In this document: in pieces, positions 34,517 to 46,573 of the stretch
Numbering within the stretch: the stretch's first letter is position 1
Layout: each line of letters begins with the position of its first letter
From: Deltaproteobacteria bacterium
Lineage (GTDB): Bacteria > Desulfobacterota > SM23-61
Direction of reading: 5' to 3'
DNA length: 64,000 bases
Assembly: GCA_016875165.1 (NCBI GenBank)
Contig: VGSF01000009.1
Coordinates: 16,068 to 80,067, forward strand
The notes under the pieces: generated by a model
Database searches by the model: none
The model's input: only the letters and a program-made list of their open reading frames with translations
What the model was told of the DNA's origin: nothing
Program-made: the position numbers and the translations under genes

Positions 34517-34674
34517 TGATGATCTCGTAAAAAGTCGTAATTTGTGCTCTTTCGTCATTCCGGCCCCGATTTTCATCGGGATAAACTCCAGCCGGAATCC
34601 AGTCTTTTCAATATGTTCCGACATCTCTGGACTCCGGTTTTCACCGGAGTGACGACTTTTTACGAAGTCATCAA
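34517..34674. repeat. Palindromic element, subtype A (tandem with next)
   Basis: TGATGATCTCGTAAAAAGTCG...CGACTTTTTACGAAGTCATCA. Confidence 0.8.
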
Positions 34675-34677
34675 AGT

Positions 34678-34832
34678 TGATGGATTCGTAAAAAGTCCTG
34701 TTCCTGTCATTGCGAGGAGTTCCGCATTGGCGGGACGGCGAAGCAATCTTGTCTTTTCGGGCACTTTTAAAAACGAGATTGCTTCGCTTCCGCTCGCAAT
34801 GACCCTTTCGCGACTTTTTACGAGATCATCAA
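34678..34832. repeat. Palindromic element, subtype B (tandem with previous)
   Basis: TGATGGATTCGTAAAAAGTCC...CGACTTTTTACGAGATCATCA with GCGAGG..CGCTCGCAATGACC core. Confidence 0.8.
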
Positions 34833-38084: not shown

Positions 38085-38133
38085 TAATTGCATTTTAATA
38101 TTGCATACTATATATATCATATATCAATTTATA

Positions 38134-38162
38134 TTGACAACAGTATTATTCTGGAATATAAT
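38134..38162 (+). promoter_or_regulatory. Consensus sigma70-type promoter TTGACA-17-TATAAT upstream of XRE-helicase gene
   Basis: TTGACA 38134-38139, 17-nt spacer, TATAAT 38157-38162; ATG of the helicase at 38169. Confidence 0.8.
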
Positions 38163-38168
38163 AAGGCC

Positions 38169-41100
38169 ATGAATAGCGAAAAGATAAAAAGTATACGCTT
38201 AAAGCTCGGTTATTCACAGCAAGAATTCGCCGCCGCTCTTGGGGTATCCTTTGCAACAGTCAATCGTTGGGAAAATGGGAAGGCTAAACCGCAAAAGGAC
38301 CGCATTGGGAGGATGCAAGCACTTTTAAAACAAAATGAGCAAGAAAAAATGCAGCCCGAACCAGCCTTCAAGCAACTTCCACGATTAAACTTCGAAGGCG
38401 ACCCGGAAGCGATAAAGCTCGTGATAGATGCATACCGACTACAGAATGGGCATCTTTTTAATAAGGCTTTTGGCCTTGAGCTTTCTCGGGTTGTTCCCCT
38501 TCCTCATCAGAGAATTGCGGTCTATGAATATCTCCTTTCGCAAAACCCTCTCCGCTTTCTTCTCGCGGACGATGCCGGTGCTGGAAAGACCATTATGGCC
38601 GGTTTGTATATCCGTGAGATGATCAATCGCGGCCGGATATCACGAGTAGGTATTTTCTGCCCCGCAGGCTTAACCTGGAATTGGCGGAGAGAATTGAAGC
38701 ATTTTTTCGATCTCGATTTCCAGGTGCTCCGAAGCTCTGATTTTCAAAAGGGGGATCCATTATTCTCTTCTGACCATGCAGGCTTTATTATCAGTGTGGA
38801 TACGGCATCAACGGATTTTGTGAAAGAGCGATTAATGTCGCCCACAATGCCAGGGTTTGATCTCATTGTTTTCGATGAGGCACATAAACTGGCCTGGGGG
38901 GATCCCAAACGAAGAGACAGTCAGACCCGCCGCTACCGCCTGGCCGAAGCCCTTGGCCCTCGCACCAACCATATGCTTCTGCTGACGGCCACCCCGCACA
39001 TGGGCAAGCCTTTCCCATACTTTGCTCTTTGGCGCCTGCTGGACCCCAATGTATTCACCACTCTTGATGCCCTTCCATCCCTGGAAGCAGAAAAGCGCTC
39101 GAAATATTTTTTGCGTCGTTTAAAAGAGGAGATGGTGGATTATAAAGGACAACCCATCTACATGCCTCGTCTTTGTCAAACGATATCTTTTGAATTGAGC
39201 CCAGGGGAACAAAATTTTTATGAGGAAGCTTCAGCCTATTTGCGCTGGAGCTACGAAACCAGCATGACCCACAATAAAAATGCAGCGGCCATGGTCGTTG
39301 CAGTTTTGCAGCGTCGTCTCGCCAGTTCCACTTACGCCATGCTGGAGTCGCTCAAGCGGATACGGTCACGAATCATAGAGAACGATCTTCCTTCATCTCC
39401 GGCCGATTCCCTTCCTCTTGAAAAAATCATAGAACATTTTGATAGTAGCACTGCGGATGAAGGCGAACCTTCGGAGGACGGCCGGGAAAGCGACGAAAGT
39501 TTTGAAGATCAAGCACTCAATTTGAAAAAGCCGGCCACAAACCAGCAACGCGAGAAGGAATTGGAATCCTTGGAGCGGATCATTGAGCTTGGAGAAAATG
39601 TTCGCGCCACGCTCCAGGAAACGAAGTTTATCAAGTTGAGGGAGCTGATAGAATCAGCCGAATTTCAGAACGAAAAAATATTAATCTTCACCGAGCACCG
39701 GGACACCCTAAATTATTTGCGCCAGAGGTTTGAAGCACTGGGGTATACCGGCCAGATTGCTTCGATCCATGGAGGCATGGATGTTGAAGAGCGGGAACAA
39801 GAGCGGTTATTCTTTATGCCCCCCGAACTTCGCCCATTGGAGAGCGGCAAGAAAATGGATGACCGCAGTGCCCGCATCATGCTCGCCACAGATGCCGCAG
39901 GGGAAGGTATAAACCTGCAATTCGCCTGGCTCATGGTGAACTTCGATATCCCCTGGAACCCGGCCCGACTGGAACAAAGGATGGGGCGGCTGCACCGTTT
40001 CGGCCAGAAACATAGCGAAGTGAGAATCTTTAACCTGGTCGCTGAAAAGACGCGGGAAGGAGATGTGCTGGCCACCCTTCTTTCCAAGCTGGATGAAGCG
40101 AGAAAAGAATTGTGCAGCGACAAAGTTTTTGATGTAATCGGCCAGCAGCTCCAGGAAGTTTCGCTGCGGGATCTGTTGCGCGAAGCGTTATTTGAAACGC
40201 CCCCCTATACCGCCCAAAAAAAACTGGAATCCATCTTTGCCACCCAAAAATTGCGGGCTACGATTGAGGAGCAGAGAAAAACGGCATCAACGTATGGGGA
40301 TGTCGGCCGCCGCCTGGGGGAGCTCAACAATGAGGTCGATGCCGAAAGGTTTAATTGCCTGCTTCCGGCGTTTATTCAGAATTTTCTGGAAAAAGCGGCT
40401 CCCCGGTTGGGAATTCAATTGGAGGGAGACTTAAGCGAGACGGCCCGCTTTTCCGTGATGGGAAATGATGGGAATTGGCTGCGCCTGCTGGCTGATCGTT
40501 TTCCGGAGGGCCTGCCCGAATGCCTGACTGTCCGTCGAGAACCGGATTTACCCGATGTGAATACCGGTCAGTGCGCCTTTTTAAGGCCCGGCGAATTAAT
40601 TTTTGACGCCTTTTGTCAGGAGACGATCCGCCGATTTCAGGAAGATGTAACAAAAGGGGCGGTATTCTGTGACCCTGCGGCAGAAAAGCCGTATTACGCC
40701 GCGGTTTATCTCTGCCAGATTGGAGAGCCCTCCCGGGTTATAAAATCGGGAGCGAACGGCGGTATTTATAAACTTTTGGACCGGAAATTAATCGGCTTAA
40801 AATGGGATGAAACAGGGGATTTAAACCTCTGCCCCCCCAATCATTTGCTGGCGCTCCTGGCGGCTCCACGTTCTCTGATTTGGAAAGCAGGGAATCTCTT
40901 GCTCAACCCGGAAGATCAAGCAGTTAAGGCGGATGTTTATGCTCGCATGGTGGCCGAATCCAGCTATTTGCAGCAGATGCGGACAGCTCTTCAAGCAGAA
41001 ACGCAATCCCGCATGGACGATATCATGCGCGGTCTTGATTTTCGCAGCGGCGAATTGGCCGAGAAGAGAAGCGAGCTATCCCGACGGGTACGGGTGGGTG

Positions 41101-41657
41101 AGGCGACTGGGGCTGAAGAGCTTGAAAAGGTGAAAAAAGAGCAGGCTCAGCTTGAGGAGGAGAAAGCGGAAATCCTTTTATATGAGCAGAGAAGGTCGGA
41201 TCTTCTTGAAATCATCAAAATGGAGCGGCTTGCTATTGCCTTGATCATTCCGGATCCGAGCCCCGTAGCCCAGGAGACTTACGACAAAAATATCGAAGCA
41301 ATGGCCATGCGCATCGCCCGTAATTTTGAAGTGGATCGCTATAAAGCCCGAGTATTTGATGTTTCCTCGCCCCACCTTGCCAGAGGATATGATCTGGAGA
41401 GTCACCGGGCAAACGGCGAAAAGGTGGTGATTGAAGTAAAGGGCCGGGCCGGGCGCGGGCCGGTTCAGCTAACCGAGAATGAATGGCCAACAGCCGTAAA
41501 TGTGCGGGACCGCTATTGGCTTTATGTGGCCGTCGATTGCGCTACAAATCCCAGACTTTATCGTGTACAGGACCCGGCCTTTAAATTGGCGGTGAAAAGC
41601 CGGCAGAGTTTCACGATTAATATTGGAGAGGTGATTCGGGAGGCAGAACAGGATTAA
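38169..41657 (+). CDS. SNF2-family DEAH helicase with N-terminal XRE HTH and C-terminal DUF3883
   Basis: [99 protein letters not shown]; C-term [34 protein letters not shown]. Confidence 0.9.
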   Translation: [1162 protein letters not shown]

Positions 41658-41701
41658 AGAAAAAAGATTAAGGCGCAAGGCAAAAGGATAAAGGAGAAAA
41701 A

Positions 41702-42931
41702 ATGGGGAAGCAAACAAAGCTGGTTAAAGGAGGAGCTTTTCCTGCAATCCTGCCGGAAATTCGGTCCATGATCGAACAGTCCCGTGATCATGTAGCCTAT
41801 ACGGCCAACCTGTTTCTGGTCAATCTTTATTGGAATATCGGGCGAATTATCACCCAGGATATTCAGGCGAACGAAAGAAGGGCCGAGTATGGGGAGCAGC
41901 TCATAGAAGAATTGGCTAAGGAATTGGGGAAGGAATATGGATCAGGTTACTCAGCGAAGAATCTGTGGGATATGAAAAGATTCTTTGGCGCCTTTGAGAT
42001 TCTCCAGACAGTGTCTGGAGAATTCAGGGACGAGGTAATTCTCCGACCTCTAAGCGGGAAGGCCTTAGGATCTGGAAATGTGCAGCCACCGGCTGCAGAA
42101 TCACGTGTGCAGCGAATTCGTCAGACAGCGTCTAATCAATTTGAGAAAGACAAGATTCTCCAGACACTGTCTGGAGAATCCTCTGAGCGTCTTCGAATCG
42201 ACTTTGATAAGCATTTCCGCATTGGCTGGTCCCATTATCGCCTTCTTCTTGGTCAAAGTGATCCCCTCAAACGCAAATTTTATTTTGAACAATCCGCCTC
42301 CCAGCGATGGTCTGTCCGCGAACTCCACCGCCAGATTGATGGCGCCCTTTTCGAACGAGTAGCCCTCTCCCGCGATACCCGCAAGCTTGCCAGTCTCGAA
42401 AGACGAAAAAGTCCGAAAGAGGTAGTCCGATACGAGGACATTTTCAAGGATCCCTACCTTCTTGACTTCCTCGGCTTGAAAGGCGCTTATTCGGAGAAAG
42501 ATCTCGAAGCTGCGATTATCCATAACCTCGAACAGTTCCTGACAGAGCTGGGCAGTGATTTCTGCTTCATTGGCCGCCAGTACGCGATGCGGATTGATGA
42601 CGTGGATTATTTTCTTGATCTTCTCTTTTTCCACCGTGGATTAAGTTGTTTAGTGGCCATTGACCTGAAACTGGGTACCTTCACCGCAGCCGACAAGGGC
42701 CAGATGGACCTTTATCTTGCCTGGCTGAAAGAGCACGAATGGCGCGAGGGCGAAAATGAACCTATCGGTTTAGTTTTATGCAGCTCCAAAAAACGGCAGC
42801 ATGTCGAGTTGCTGCTACGCCATGGACCGCATAAAATGCAGGTCTCTGAATATTTGATGAAGTTGCCAGACAAGAGACTGCTCGAAGAAAGACTGCGAAT
42901 TTACAGTAGGCTGTTGAGAGGTGAGAATTAA
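41702..42931 (+). CDS. DUF1016 / YhcG-family PDDEXK nuclease
   Basis: IRSMIEQSRDHVAYTANLFLVNLYWNIGRIITQDI..RAEYGEQLIEELAKEL; WSVRELHRQIDGALFERVALS; FLDLLFFHRGLSCLVAIDLKLG. Confidence 0.88.
   Translation: MGKQTKLVKGGAFPAILPEIRSMIEQSRDHVAYTANLFLVNLYWNIGRIITQDIQANERRAEYGEQLIEELAKELGKEYGSGYSAKNLWDMKRFFGAFEILQTVSGEFRDEVILRPLSGKALGSGNVQPPAAESRVQRIRQTASNQFEKDKILQTLSGESSERLRIDFDKHFRIGWSHYRLLLGQSDPLKRKFYFEQSASQRWSVRELHRQIDGALFERVALSRDTRKLASLERRKSPKEVVRYEDIFKDPYLLDFLGLKGAYSEKDLEAAIIHNLEQFLTELGSDFCFIGRQYAMRIDDVDYFLDLLFFHRGLSCLVAIDLKLGTFTAADKGQMDLYLAWLKEHEWREGENEPIGLVLCSSKKRQHVELLLRHGPHKMQVSEYLMKLPDKRLLEERLRIYSRLLRGEN
41999..42193. repeat. Five tandem in-frame 39-bp units (13 aa each) carrying palindromes, inside DUF1016 gene
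   Basis: Units ILQTVSGEFRDEV / ILRPLSGKALGSG / NVQPPAAESRVQR / IRQTASNQFEKDK / ILQTLSGESSERL; ATTCTCCAGACA[G/C]TGTCTGGAGAAT in units 1 and 5. Confidence 0.8.
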
Positions 42932-43433
42932 GACGCGGAGACACGGGGACGCGGAGACGCGGAGACGCGGAGATTTTGATATGGAAAATATCAGATCATT
43001 TAAGGAACTGAAGGTTTGGAATAAGGCAATGGACCTTGCTATGGAAATATTTGAAATCACCAAAAAGTTTCCACCAGAAGAAAGGTATTCACTGACGGAT
43101 CAAATTCGGCGTTCTTCGAGATCCGTGCCGGCAAATATTGCCGAAGCATGGCGTAAAAGACGGTATCCGGCGGCATTTGTAAGCAAGCTTAATGATGCAG
43201 AGGGCGAGTCTGCCGAAACGCAAACGCATATTGAAATAGCAAGGCGCTGTGGGTATATTGAACCGGAAGCAGCTTTGAGGGTCGATAATTCATGCGAAGA
43301 GACCATGGCAATGCTCGTTTCAATGATTTCGAACCCCCATCAATGGACCATACGCCGTTCAACCAAGGTAAATGGAACGAAATCATGACTAAACCGTTCA
43401 ACGCGTCTCCATGTCTACGCGTCTCCGCGTCTT
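42930..43433. mobile_element. Putative S23 (four-helix-bundle) cassette bounded by imperfect inverted repeats
   Basis: AAGACGCGGAGACACGGGGACGCGGAGACGCG (from ~42930) vs reverse complement of 43401-43433 AAGACGCGGAGACGCGTAGACATGGAGACGCG: 27/32 matches by eye. Confidence 0.55.
42981..43388 (+). CDS. Four-helix bundle protein (S23/IVP family)
   Basis: SFKELKVWNKAMDLAMEIFEITKKFPPEERYSLTDQIRRSSRSVPANIAEAWRKRRYPAAFVSKLNDAEGESAETQTHIEIARRCGYI. Confidence 0.88.
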   Translation: MENIRSFKELKVWNKAMDLAMEIFEITKKFPPEERYSLTDQIRRSSRSVPANIAEAWRKRRYPAAFVSKLNDAEGESAETQTHIEIARRCGYIEPEAALRVDNSCEETMAMLVSMISNPHQWTIRRSTKVNGTKS

Positions 43434-46400
43434 CATCAGATTTCCCCCGTCTTATCGAAGTTGCCTTTCCTCTTAAGCAAGCCTCACTGGCCAGTGTGCA
43501 TGAGAAGAATGTGCGGCATGGGCATATTTCTACGCTTCATATTTGGCCGGCGAGGCGGCCTTTGGCGGCGTGCCGGGCGGCGCTTTTGGCCACATTGCTT
43601 CCCGATCCGGGCGATCCTGTTAAACGGCAAGCATTGCTGGAAAAGATCGGCGGAAGAGTCGTTTTCAAAAAGGTGAAAACCGTAAATGAAGAAGGCGCTA
43701 CCGTAACTGAAGAAAAGGAGACGCTCGAAAGGGGCGTGTTGGCTTGGGGGCAGGAGAATGATCCGGCAATGGATGAATTTCGCAAATTGATCCGGAAATA
43801 CTACGGCGATAAGGCGCCGAAGGTTCTGGATCCATTTGCCGGTGGGGGTGCAATTCCACTGGAGGCCATGCGCCTTGGCTGCGATGTTATCGCTTCTGAT
43901 ATCAACCCGGTGGCCTGGCTTATTTTAAAATGTACTCTTGATTACCCCCAACAATTTGCAGGCAAGAAATGGCCTTTGCCAGATTTTGTCAGGGACTGGC
44001 CGGATTTCATCGAGGATTTTCTGTCGGGAAAAATTAAGAAGCGAAGAGGAAAAAGGAAACCGCATTCTACCGATCCACAGCAACTCCAATTGCTTAACCT
44101 TCCCGACGCAGATTTGGCCTGGCATGTTCGGGCATGGGGACGATGGGTTCTGGAGAGAGCAAGGGCCGATCTCGCTGCCCGATATCCCATTATAGACGGC
44201 GAACCGACAGTGGCTTATCTCTGGGCGCGGACTGCCCGCGACAAAATTACGGCTGGGAAAATTCCTCTGCTCAAGACTTTTTGGCTATGCAAAAAGAAGG
44301 GGAAAAGAATTGCGCTGCTGCCGGTTCCCAAGGAGGATGGCTCCGTGGTCACTTTCAAATTATTACATGACGCCGATCTTACCAAGCCCCAGAAGATAAT
44401 TGATGATTATCCATTTCTGAAAAAGTGGGAAATCAAAGCCGATAAATTAAGCGACTTTCTGAACGCGGGCACGATGAACCGGGCTGGAGTGTGGAGCCCG
44501 TGCAGCGGCAGACCGAAATTGATTGCCTTAACCATGGATGATTTGCGACGCCAAGGACAGCAAGGACTTTTGGGAAACCAGATGACGGCGGTTGTCGTTG
44601 AAGCCACTGCGCCGGATGGCAAGAAAACCTTCAAACGTTATCGTTTGCCAATCGAAGAGGAAAGTAAGGCTGCGCAGGTTGAGATTGAAGACATGGAGGA
44701 TGTGTTTTCCGATATTCCCTTTGGAATACCTGACGAACCTTTGCCGCCGGTTGGCACGTTGGGTTTCCGTATTCCTCTCTACGGCTTTAAAAAATGGAGA
44801 GATATTTTTACATCGCGGCAGCTTTTGGCGTTGGGAACTTTTGTTAAACATACCCGCAAGGCCGTTCATGAAATCACGCGCAAAGATGAAAAGGTAGCCG
44901 AAGTTATTGGGGCTTATCTTTCGATGATTCTTGATCGGGTTGCAGACCGCGGCAGTACGATCTGTACATGGACTGTTGATTGGAACAAGATAAGAAATAC
45001 ATTTGGCCGATTTGCTCTTCCGATTACCTGGGATTTTGCCGAAAGCGTGACAACCGTTGAAACCTCCGGAGGGTATCCAGGGCAGATTGAGTTGGTTGCC
45101 CAATTCGTGGCGCATGCTTCAAAAATGGGCAATACAAACAGTCCCTTATTATCCGTCAAAAAGGAATCGGCCATTTCAATAGATGATAAAGGCATAGATT
45201 TTGTCGTTACTGATCCCCCTTACTATGATGCAATTCCTTATTCAGATTTAATGGATTTTTTCTACATCTGGCTTCGCCGAAACCAATACGGTTTCAGTCA
45301 GCAAATGGATGATGTTTTTCAATGGCCTTTGTCGCCGAAATGGAGTCATGAACAAAAGGATGGCGAGCTGATTGATGATGAATCAAGGTTCGGCGGTGAT
45401 AAAGGGGCTTCAAAGAAGTCATATGAAGATGGGATGGCCAGAGCTTTTCAAAAGATGTGCGAAGGGTTGAGTGCTGAGGGGCGAATTGTAATTGTTTTTG
45501 CCAATAAAGAGGTTGATGCTTGGGAAACCCTTATCGGGGCCTTGATCCGCGGTGGGGCGACCGTAACGGCAAGCTGGCCGATCCAAACCGAGATGCCCAA
45601 TCGCGTTCGCAATGTCGCAGCGGCAGCTCTTTCCACATCTGTCTGGATCGTCTGTCGCAAGCGGCTGAGCACAGCGGCGGCAGGATGGGATGCTAATGTC
45701 CTTGCCCGGATGAAGCAAATCCTTTTCGACCCCAGGGAAGTTCTTGGGGGTCGGAATATCCTGCAATATTATTTTGACCTTGGCATTCGGGGGCCGGACT
45801 TCATCTGGGCGGCATTAGGCCCGGCATTGGAGGCTTACAGCGCCCATCCTTTCGTGAAAAAGCAAGAGGGTGGGGTGATGACCGTCCCTGAATTTTTGAA
45901 AGAAGTTCGCAAGCTCGTGCTGCAATTTTCCCTTGGCGAACTTCCGGGTTTCCGGGATGTGCAGCGGGAAACACAAGGGCGGGGCGAGGCGATCGAACTT
46001 GATCCCGTAACGCAATATTATCTTTTGCACCGCGCCTATTTCGGCCTTGAACCTGCGCCTGCCGGGGCCTGCATCCTTTATGCGAACGCCTGCGGCAAGA
46101 ACGAGACGGAATTAAAATTAGTGTGGAACATCATCGAACAAGGCGGCAAATCCAAAAGGGGGCGGCCCACCAAGGAAGATTCCGAAATGGAAGAGGAGAG
46201 TGGGGGCGAAACAAAAGGCAACGAATACCGTCTTCTGGATTGGGCCGAACGGGTGAAAGATGACCGTCTTGGTGAAACCCGCGGGGGGAATCCTGCTCCT
46301 TTGATCGATCGTCTACATCGCCTGATGCTGCTTTTTAATCAAAACCGCACAGGTGAAGTTCAGCAGGCATTTGACGCCTGGGGGTTGTCCAGCGAACGAG

Positions 46401-46573
46401 CTTTCGGCCCTCTGCTCCAGGCAGTACGCGAGTTGGCCGTGCGGGATGAAAGGGATACGGAGAGGCGTCTGGTAGAAGCGCTGGCGACGCAGCTTAAAAT
46501 GAATCACCGAACAGTGATTGCGGAGAATGTGGTCCGGGATACGCCGCTTTTCGAATACGGGAAGGAAAAGTAA
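43385..46573 (+). CDS. DUF1156 (COG1743-type) adenine-specific DNA methyltransferase
   Basis: IEVAFPLKQASLASVHEKNVRHGHISTLHIWPARRPLAACRA; DPFAGGGAIPLEAMRLGCDVIASDINP; DPPYYDAIPYSDLMDFFYIWLRR. ATGA overlap with S23 stop. Confidence 0.9.
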   Translation: MTKPFNASPCLRVSASSSDFPRLIEVAFPLKQASLASVHEKNVRHGHISTLHIWPARRPLAACRAALLATLLPDPGDPVKRQALLEKIGGRVVFKKVKTVNEEGATVTEEKETLERGVLAWGQENDPAMDEFRKLIRKYYGDKAPKVLDPFAGGGAIPLEAMRLGCDVIASDINPVAWLILKCTLDYPQQFAGKKWPLPDFVRDWPDFIEDFLSGKIKKRRGKRKPHSTDPQQLQLLNLPDADLAWHVRAWGRWVLERARADLAARYPIIDGEPTVAYLWARTARDKITAGKIPLLKTFWLCKKKGKRIALLPVPKEDGSVVTFKLLHDADLTKPQKIIDDYPFLKKWEIKADKLSDFLNAGTMNRAGVWSPCSGRPKLIALTMDDLRRQGQQGLLGNQMTAVVVEATAPDGKKTFKRYRLPIEEESKAAQVEIEDMEDVFSDIPFGIPDEPLPPVGTLGFRIPLYGFKKWRDIFTSRQLLALGTFVKHTRKAVHEITRKDEKVAEVIGAYLSMILDRVADRGSTICTWTVDWNKIRNTFGRFALPITWDFAESVTTVETSGGYPGQIELVAQFVAHASKMGNTNSPLLSVKKESAISIDDKGIDFVVTDPPYYDAIPYSDLMDFFYIWLRRNQYGFSQQMDDVFQWPLSPKWSHEQKDGELIDDESRFGGDKGASKKSYEDGMARAFQKMCEGLSAEGRIVIVFANKEVDAWETLIGALIRGGATVTASWPIQTEMPNRVRNVAAAALSTSVWIVCRKRLSTAAAGWDANVLARMKQILFDPREVLGGRNILQYYFDLGIRGPDFIWAALGPALEAYSAHPFVKKQEGGVMTVPEFLKEVRKLVLQFSLGELPGFRDVQRETQGRGEAIELDPVTQYYLLHRAYFGLEPAPAGACILYANACGKNETELKLVWNIIEQGGKSKRGRPTKEDSEMEEESGGETKGNEYRLLDWAERVKDDRLGETRGGNPAPLIDRLHRLMLLFNQNRTGEVQQAFDAWGLSSERAFGPLLQAVRELAVRDERDTERRLVEALATQLKMNHRTVIAENVVRDTPLFEYGKEK

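Follow-up and report, generated by a model that had tools for sequence, protein, structure and literature searches.

A palindrome embedded in the coding sequence of a DUF1016 (YhcG) nuclease gene is probably the binding site of the protein encoded by the very gene that carries it, and the gene in the window (the whole 64,000-nucleotide stretch of DNA analyzed here) has multiplied that site. A palindrome fixed in place and in codon phase, and constrained at the level of DNA, is family-wide in DUF1016, and there is co-variation between the bases of its half-site and residues of three helices, the equivalents of the ones by which ParB and Noc contact parS and NBS. On the combined strength of the co-variation and the predicted fold, a dimer of the protein would very probably bind the palindrome of its own gene through a ParB-like domain, giving the gene a built-in address.

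The window gene and its five-unit array

The gene (positions 41702 to 42931, forward strand) encodes a protein of 409 amino acids with a predicted ParB-like DNA-binding domain and a predicted PD-(D/E)XK nuclease domain. Its sole Pfam matches are DUF1016_N (3.7e-39) and YhcG_C (8.6e-51), both over the curated cutoff, and it matches the PADLOC class PDC-S02 (3e-117); judged by both Pfam domains, it is a plain DUF1016/YhcG member. The YhcG_C domain, assigned by Pfam and fold comparison to residues 246 to 396 (42437 to 42889, forward strand), has a predicted nuclease motif in which D306 and D321-L-K323 match conserved positions.

Within the open reading frame, the linker is encoded by an array of five 39-nt units of 13 amino acids each (41999 to 42193, forward strand), and the sequence-only reading that had described them is exact in both coordinates and frame (5 × 39 nt). 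Of the 12 pairs possible in a 25-nt palindrome, units 1 to 5 form 12, 4, 9, 8, and 12, the chance level being 3 of 12 (P = 4e-4 for ≥9 pairs and 6e-8 for 12). The palindrome reported as near-perfect in units 1 and 5 is perfect in both (12/12 pairs). Site 1, the 25-nt ATTCTCCAGACAGTGTCTGGAGAAT, lies at 41999 to 42023, and site 5, the 27-nt GATTCTCCAGACACTGTCTGGAGAATC, at 42154 to 42180; both are predicted binding sites and have no strand, as is also the case for the weaker palindromes between them. Unit 3 does contain the palindrome of its own that had been noticed (core TGCAGCCACCGGCTGCA at 42081 to 42097), but this is degenerate over 25 nt (42077 to 42101; 9/12 pairs), and unit 4 holds a degenerate version, as described (42116 to 42140; 8/12 pairs). 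Unit 2 is nonpalindromic (4/12 pairs, with 3 expected) and retains only its start, ATTCTCC.

The palindromes of units 1 and 5 rank second and third in the 64-kb window, behind a 42-nt hairpin at 34655 to 34696. The encoded amino acids do not dictate them, because the palindrome score of the gene, 12.75, was reached in none of 60 synonymous-codon shuffles (5.2 ± 1.3). A scan of the whole 5.33-Mb genome, allowing ≤3 mismatches, located the palindrome at two places only, both in the window gene, so that the suggested search for further genomic copies found none beyond these. Modeling of the loop, also suggested, predicts disorder, residues 103 to 160 being mostly below pLDDT 50 in the AlphaFold2 model, and the unit number differs among the nearest relatives (about 2 in L160, 5 in the window gene, and about 7 in L068). 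The description of the array as a palindromic repeat colonizing a flexible loop is therefore apt with regard to the in-frame units, the predicted disorder of the loop, its location between two conserved blocks, and the variable unit number. It is not supported with regard to a foreign element, as the palindrome is native to the family, has a fixed phase and place, and follows in its sequence the DNA-contacting residues. What is peculiar to the window gene is the local multiplication of a native site, which is extreme and partly decayed, with two units intact.

A palindrome shared by the DUF1016 family

Unbiased sets were assembled by taking DUF1016 genes by Pfam match alone (61 + 39 = 100); these sets represent one phylum, and carriers elsewhere were found via the palindrome, except for the Escherichia coli, plasmid, and phage genes. 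A clear palindrome (score of ≥7) was present in 51 of 61 and 34 of 39 genes, i.e., 85 of 100, and about 15% had none (score of <7); a phage WO relative scored 5.25. Among the 61 genes, the best palindrome of the linker had a mean score of 9.4, compared to 5.8 for the best one in the rest of the gene and 4.2 once the codons were shuffled synonymously (Wilcoxon test, 1e-11), and 47 genes exceeded all 60 of their shuffles. In every one of 101 genes, the center falls on codon position 1, and in all 39 short-linker genes it lies exactly 33 nt ahead of the same anchor. Across phyla, the palindrome is located in the codons of the linker that joins two parts of the predicted DNA-binding domain, both of them DNA-contacting. 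Many genes contain two to four palindromes, with 39 nt as the commonest spacing.

The palindromes themselves differ greatly from gene to gene (e.g., CTCGCACCACTGGTGCGAG, GTGCCACAGGCTGTGGCAC, and CTCTACGCACTGCGTAGAG), but their arms pair at 92 to 100% at positions 2 to 9, with several pair types per position. Mismatches at these positions comprise 3 GT/TG and 10 AC/CA, and this lack of a G-U preference indicates that the constraint is on double-stranded DNA. Selection thus appears, from these sequences, to act on DNA at the palindrome.

Copies of a gene's own palindrome in its flanks are rare among 100 full-length genes, with one clear case of a promoter copy (L172). The idea that the palindromes are general gene boundaries, for which a copy 16 nt past the yhcG stop codon in E. 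coli might have spoken, was rejected on this rarity. Coresident DUF1016 paralogues do not share a site (0/28 pairs).

A predicted ParB/Noc-type DNA-binding domain

The region around the palindrome is predicted to form a ParB/Noc-type DNA-binding domain. In AlphaFold2 models, helices 83 to 95, 120 to 133, and 137 to 145 (L045 protein numbering) succeed one another as they do in the DNA-binding domain of ParB. Structural comparison matched model residues 36 to 154 to the DNA-binding domains of Noc (Z score of 8.8), Noc-NBS (8.6), Myxococcus xanthus ParB (8.2), and Spo0J with parS (7.7), the Noc and ParB matches extending over about 100 residues, and residues 196 to 316 to EndoMS/NucS (9.4) and Hjc (7.7). 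The model of the window protein matched ParB with a Z score of 8.8 (3.0 Å over 101 residues in the range 35 to 219), skipping the five-unit insert; ParB fold matches with Z scores of 8 to 9 are middling. At the sequence level, HTH_ParB was matched at 8e-4 in the nearest relative, which is under the curated cutoff, and at 0.044 in the window fragment, and a sequence search of the PDB with one protein found no relative, the alignment giving chance-level matches only. The window protein had no Pfam match to ParB_N, the N-terminal CTPase domain, at an E value of ≤1e-3, and its N terminus is modeled as long helices; it would therefore be a relative of the DNA-binding domain of ParB only and not a ParB.

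ParB contacts parS through recognition helix α4 (R173-guanine), α6 (residue 201), and α8 (PMC7383237). Our own alignment of the motifs LSxGHAR and LSWSHY equates column 146 with ParB residue 201 and places columns 92 to 96 on α4 and columns 174 to 179 on α8. By this alignment, the co-varying columns described below map to the three helices with which ParB is known to contact DNA, and the ParB family had not been used to find them.

In the window protein, the putative equivalent of α4 is the modeled helix 85 to 97 (codons at 41954 to 41992, forward strand), which is assigned also by co-variation with bases −5 to −9 and in which K86, W89, and D90 correspond to columns 92, 95, and 96. The modeled helix 176 to 183 (WSHYRLLL; 42227 to 42250, forward strand), supported by co-variation and by the ParB contacts (PMC7383237), contains S177, which is column 146 and is aligned with the ParB specificity residue. 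The putative equivalent of α8, again from the model and co-variation, is helix 205 to 213 (VRELHRQI; 42314 to 42340, forward strand), with V205, R206, and R210 as columns 174, 175, and 179.

Co-variation between residues and bases

After correction for overall protein distance, palindrome distance tracks columns of about 91 to 110 and 156 to 195, in addition to the palindrome's own codons. With the same correction, the catalytic core shows no consistent co-variation with the palindrome. When the N-terminal region was taken in its entirety, co-variation proved weak, the signal being concentrated in defined helices.

A residue-base code was drawn from 86 genes. At base −7, G occurs with R92 (24/27) and C with Q92 (16/16), C also being mostly the base that accompanies S92. 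T at base −8 accompanies W, Y, or F95 (43/43), and at base −9, C accompanies W95 (26/27) and G accompanies K95. On the inner side, C at base −2 is found with R175 (50/50), and base −3 is C with R, K, or Q174 (27/28), G with T, A, or S174 (8/8), and A with V, I, L, F, or Y174.

A further comparison used 56 independent sister pairs from 113 nonredundant genes, drawn by distance rather than by full phylogeny. Among about 320 columns, the top column was 92 for base −7 (both change in 29 pairs and the base alone in none; P = 2e-8), 95 for both −8 and −9, 146 for −3 (P = 3e-8), and 175 for −2 (P = 4e-5). The code was also applied to 37 unseen genes and compared with 500 shuffles. Correct predictions were made in 27 of 34 cases for −7/92 (shuffled, 15.3; maximum, 24), 31 of 36 for −3/174 (16.2; maximum, 22), and 25 of 37 for −5/96 (15.0; maximum, 24). 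The results for −8 (12/12) and −9 (8/9) were both level with the best shuffle, and the −2 rules performed no better than shuffled data, being uninformative because base −2 is nearly always C in these genes. Statistically, specificity would be set by residues of the α4, α6, and α8 type, represented by columns 92/95/96, 146, and 174/175.

Alleles of E. coli yhcG

E. coli K-12 yhcG contains three in-frame palindromes, and its 20-kb locus contains two more, 16 nt past the gltD stop codon and 16 nt past the yhcG stop codon. Two allele types differ as the code predicts: one combines the helix SAKNLRQM (K92/R95) with the first site ATTCGCCAGAC, and the other combines STRNLWQF (R92/W95) with ATTGTGCAGAC, so that K92R goes with C→G at −7 and R95W with G→T at −8. 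Sites 2 and 3 of K-12 yhcG deviate from the outer-base rules. Between alleles L261 and L262, the second site has changed on its two arms in a matched way, and in O157:H7 alleles an in-frame 78-nt deletion has removed sites 2 and 3 and kept site 1.

In E. coli B C2566 (L249, 8001 to 8802), yhcG ends exactly at the 3′ edge of the third palindrome, and the remainder, to just beyond the downstream palindrome, is swapped for about 470 bp containing a 101-amino-acid open reading frame with no Pfam match; this truncated form occurred in 10 of 60 evenly sampled yhcG matches. In E. coli O25:H16, an IS1 abuts sequence that begins inside palindrome 3. Such breakpoints were not accepted as proof of self-cleavage, since insertion sequence elements are involved. 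The palindrome after gltD in K-12 (L248, 5633 to 5657) lies where the variable gltF-yhcF island has its left end, and the strains examined that lack the island also lack that palindrome.

Deletion of yhcG is synthetic lethal with dnaB, dnaN, and parE hypomorphs (PMC2672614). This single reported yhcG phenotype hints at a role for YhcG in replication and gains a concrete hypothesis from the predicted self-addressing.

The palindrome in other genomes

The exact 23-mer of the palindrome, TTCTCCAGACANTGTCTGGAGAA, was found in 34 stretches in 257 Gb of other genomes (85,000 species genomes), with about 0.015 expected by chance. Its carriers are Proteobacteria, Acidobacteria, Bacteroidota, Latescibacterota, Planctomycetota, and an archaeon, and the matches lie mostly inside DUF1016 genes, at the same place, where they are translated as ILQT[LV]SGE. 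Copies per genome are mostly one or two in the 34 other carriers. A less strict pattern, ATTNNNCAGNCNNNGNCTGNNNAAT, in which 14 bases are fixed, was run blind on 395 genomes of the phylum; its matches are mostly complementary at the free positions (e.g., ATTCGGCAGGCAGTGCCTGCCGAAT and ATTCAACAGACAGTGTCTGTTGAAT), and 20 of the 32 sites beyond the window's own genome are in DUF1016 genes.

Solo palindromes also occur in genomes without a detected YhcG_C domain (G066, G070, G071, G075, G081, and G087). These look partly like gene remnants, and self-limitation, as discussed below, does not explain them. In three Latescibacterota stretches (L043, L056, and L137), DUF1016 remnants consist of a few codons and one or more palindromes, end at the palindrome, and are followed by an unrelated open reading frame (MMLDTSAVEIDKSG... 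in L043 and L056). Hymenobacter sp. H14-R3 (L064/L144), again without a detected YhcG_C domain, has three different near-perfect palindromes spaced 36 to 37 nt apart in noncoding DNA. Two species belonging to a single genus have a DUF1016-type palindrome about 50 nt upstream of genes judged by eye to be Fic-like (L103, 2588; L104, 2534; L106, 2410), placed as an operator might be.

Proposed function and alternative explanations

The preferred sites are predicted to be ATTCGCCAGACNNNGTCTGGCGAAT for E. coli K-12 YhcG and ATTCTCCAGACANTGTCTGGAGAAT for the window protein, in whose gene the site would have been multiplied into the five 39-nt units, two of which would still be intact. What the binding achieves is less certain, and we consider it plausible, with some reserve, that its main use is self-limitation. 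Bound protein would block elongation of its own transcript, and a potentially harmful nuclease would be kept scarce and parked at its own locus. Because promoter copies are rare, repression would need such an intragenic roadblock. The PD-(D/E)XK domain would act only under another condition, such as a second site, structured or replicating DNA, or incoming DNA with the same site. More tentatively, DUF1016 genes may be self-addressed nuclease genes in which the gene and its sole site are inseparable and co-evolve, forming portable, mutually orthogonal units for self-limitation and the exclusion of same-allele DNA.

Binding to its own palindrome could alternatively serve attack, the protein cutting incoming or sister DNA with the same site for exclusion or allele drive. 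Targets would be kin plasmids, phages, and islands with the same DUF1016 allele, so that gene and target travel together. This is conceivable, although we judge it unlikely. DUF1016 genes are found on plasmids (451 records), phages, and viral contigs, often overlap a site-specific integrase, and have defense-like neighborhoods; PADLOC lists the family as a defense candidate; the sites of coresident paralogues all differ; and both the truncated yhcG of E. coli B and the IS1 junction of O25:H16 lie at palindrome 3. Against these points, the resident copy must remain uncut and neither a protecting modification nor an inhibitor was found, and the E. coli breakpoints involve insertion sequence elements. 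On plasmids of Klebsiella, Citrobacter, and Pseudomonas (L264, L266, and L267), the DUF1016 gene overlaps the upstream site-specific integrase gene by 4 nt, which suggests an operon.

In line with the sequence-only reading of a repeat colonizing a loop, the palindrome could be a mobile element of the Rickettsia palindromic element or REP type in a permissive loop, with the protein as a merely tolerant host. Such an element would fit the palindromes that occur singly or in clusters away from intact DUF1016 genes (L062, L064, L046, and others) and the variable unit number, but the palindrome has one copy per genome as a rule, its position and codon phase are fixed, most blind matches in the phylum lie within DUF1016 genes, and the palindrome follows the protein's own contact residues, which is unexpected of an indifferent host; the explanation is very unlikely. 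For the window's genome, REP-like proliferation is ruled out by the restriction of the palindrome to two in-gene sites. Perfect stems of 11 to 17 pairs would fold well in RNA, and the conserved entity might be an mRNA hairpin acting in translation control, in processing, or as protein-bound RNA. This is highly improbable and was rejected on the absent G-U preference; moreover, most centers are of 1 nt and the palindromes are exact, the form expected of a dimer site, and residues pair with bases in the arginine/lysine-guanine manner seen in ParB and other proteins that read DNA (PMC7383237). Finally, functionless palindromes might maintain themselves by template switching or quasipalindrome correction during replication, a process that would yield the matched two-arm change between alleles L261 and L262. 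As it leaves unexplained both why a single position of a single family should be affected throughout and why the palindrome co-varies with codons 30 to 200 nt away, this is extremely improbable.

Comparison with known systems

If the palindrome is the protein's own binding site, the closest parallel is ParB/Noc with parS/NBS (Pfam HTH_ParB; Jalal et al. 2020, PMC7383237), with which DUF1016 shares the predicted DNA-binding fold, the order of the three DNA-contacting helices, a palindromic site read by a dimer, an arginine-guanine type of code, and, by our alignment, a specificity residue equivalent to ParB 201. DUF1016 differs in its PD-(D/E)XK nuclease domain, in the lack of a detected N-terminal CTPase, and in the size of its site (about 25 bp, compared to 16 bp). 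Nearly every member, moreover, carries the site within the codons for its DNA-binding domain, with a sequence that varies between genes. The Bacillus subtilis spo0J gene also contains a parS site.

Rickettsia palindromic elements (PMC4316617) are likewise in-frame palindromes within protein genes, but they are dispersed over many genes in multiple copies, whereas the DUF1016 palindrome is confined to a single family, in which it holds a single position and codon phase and varies with its host protein. The many copies typical of these elements and of REP-like repeats are not seen in the window's genome, with its two sites in a single gene.

In RAYT/REP (REPIN) systems, a nuclease gene is paired with palindromes that vary between lineages, as in DUF1016. 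RAYTs, however, are HUH transposases whose REPs lie outside the gene in many copies, whereas DUF1016 proteins are of the PD-(D/E)XK type and have a palindrome inside the open reading frame and usually no other copy; no HUH (Y1) transposase domain is among the Pfam matches of the window protein. Homing endonucleases share the physical linkage of gene and recognition site, but there the gene splits its site, which is whole only in the empty allele, in contrast to the intact palindromes within DUF1016 open reading frames.

YhcG/DUF1016 proteins are predicted nucleases (COG4804) whose nuclease domain was earlier linked to Holliday junction resolvases (Kosinski et al. 2005, PMC1189080). The open-access literature searched assigns no fold to the N-terminal domain and describes no embedded palindrome or DNA target, and none of the open-access papers was found to have reported palindromes in DUF1016 genes. 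A large and poorly understood nuclease family, with E. coli K-12 yhcG at one end of its range and archaea, plasmids, and phages at the other, thus gains a likely DNA-binding fold, a residue-base code, and, for almost every member, a predicted target that can be read from its own gene. A coding sequence that must specify a portion of a DNA reader while serving as the target of that reader would be an unusual case, and more than a hundred natural protein/site pairs become available for studying the evolution of DNA recognition.

Other features of the window

The DUF1016 gene lies in a defense-like locus (38088 to 46573), flanked by an HTH/SNF2/NO-VEIN-C helicase gene (HmaA/DrmD-like) and a DUF1156 adenine-methylase-like gene (HmaB-like). 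Between the DUF1016 gene and the methylase gene, a 23S rRNA intervening-sequence protein (Pfam 23S_rRNA_IVP) is encoded at 42921 to 43388, and short repeats of the GGAGACGC type occur at about 42930 to 42972, right ahead of this gene. Other palindromes in the window are ACTCCGGTTTTCACCGGAGT, present three times (9911, 34631, and 37799), and CCCTCCCCCTGGATGGGGGAGGG, present twice (30799 and 38034); these and the 42-nt hairpin are unrelated in sequence to the DUF1016 site.
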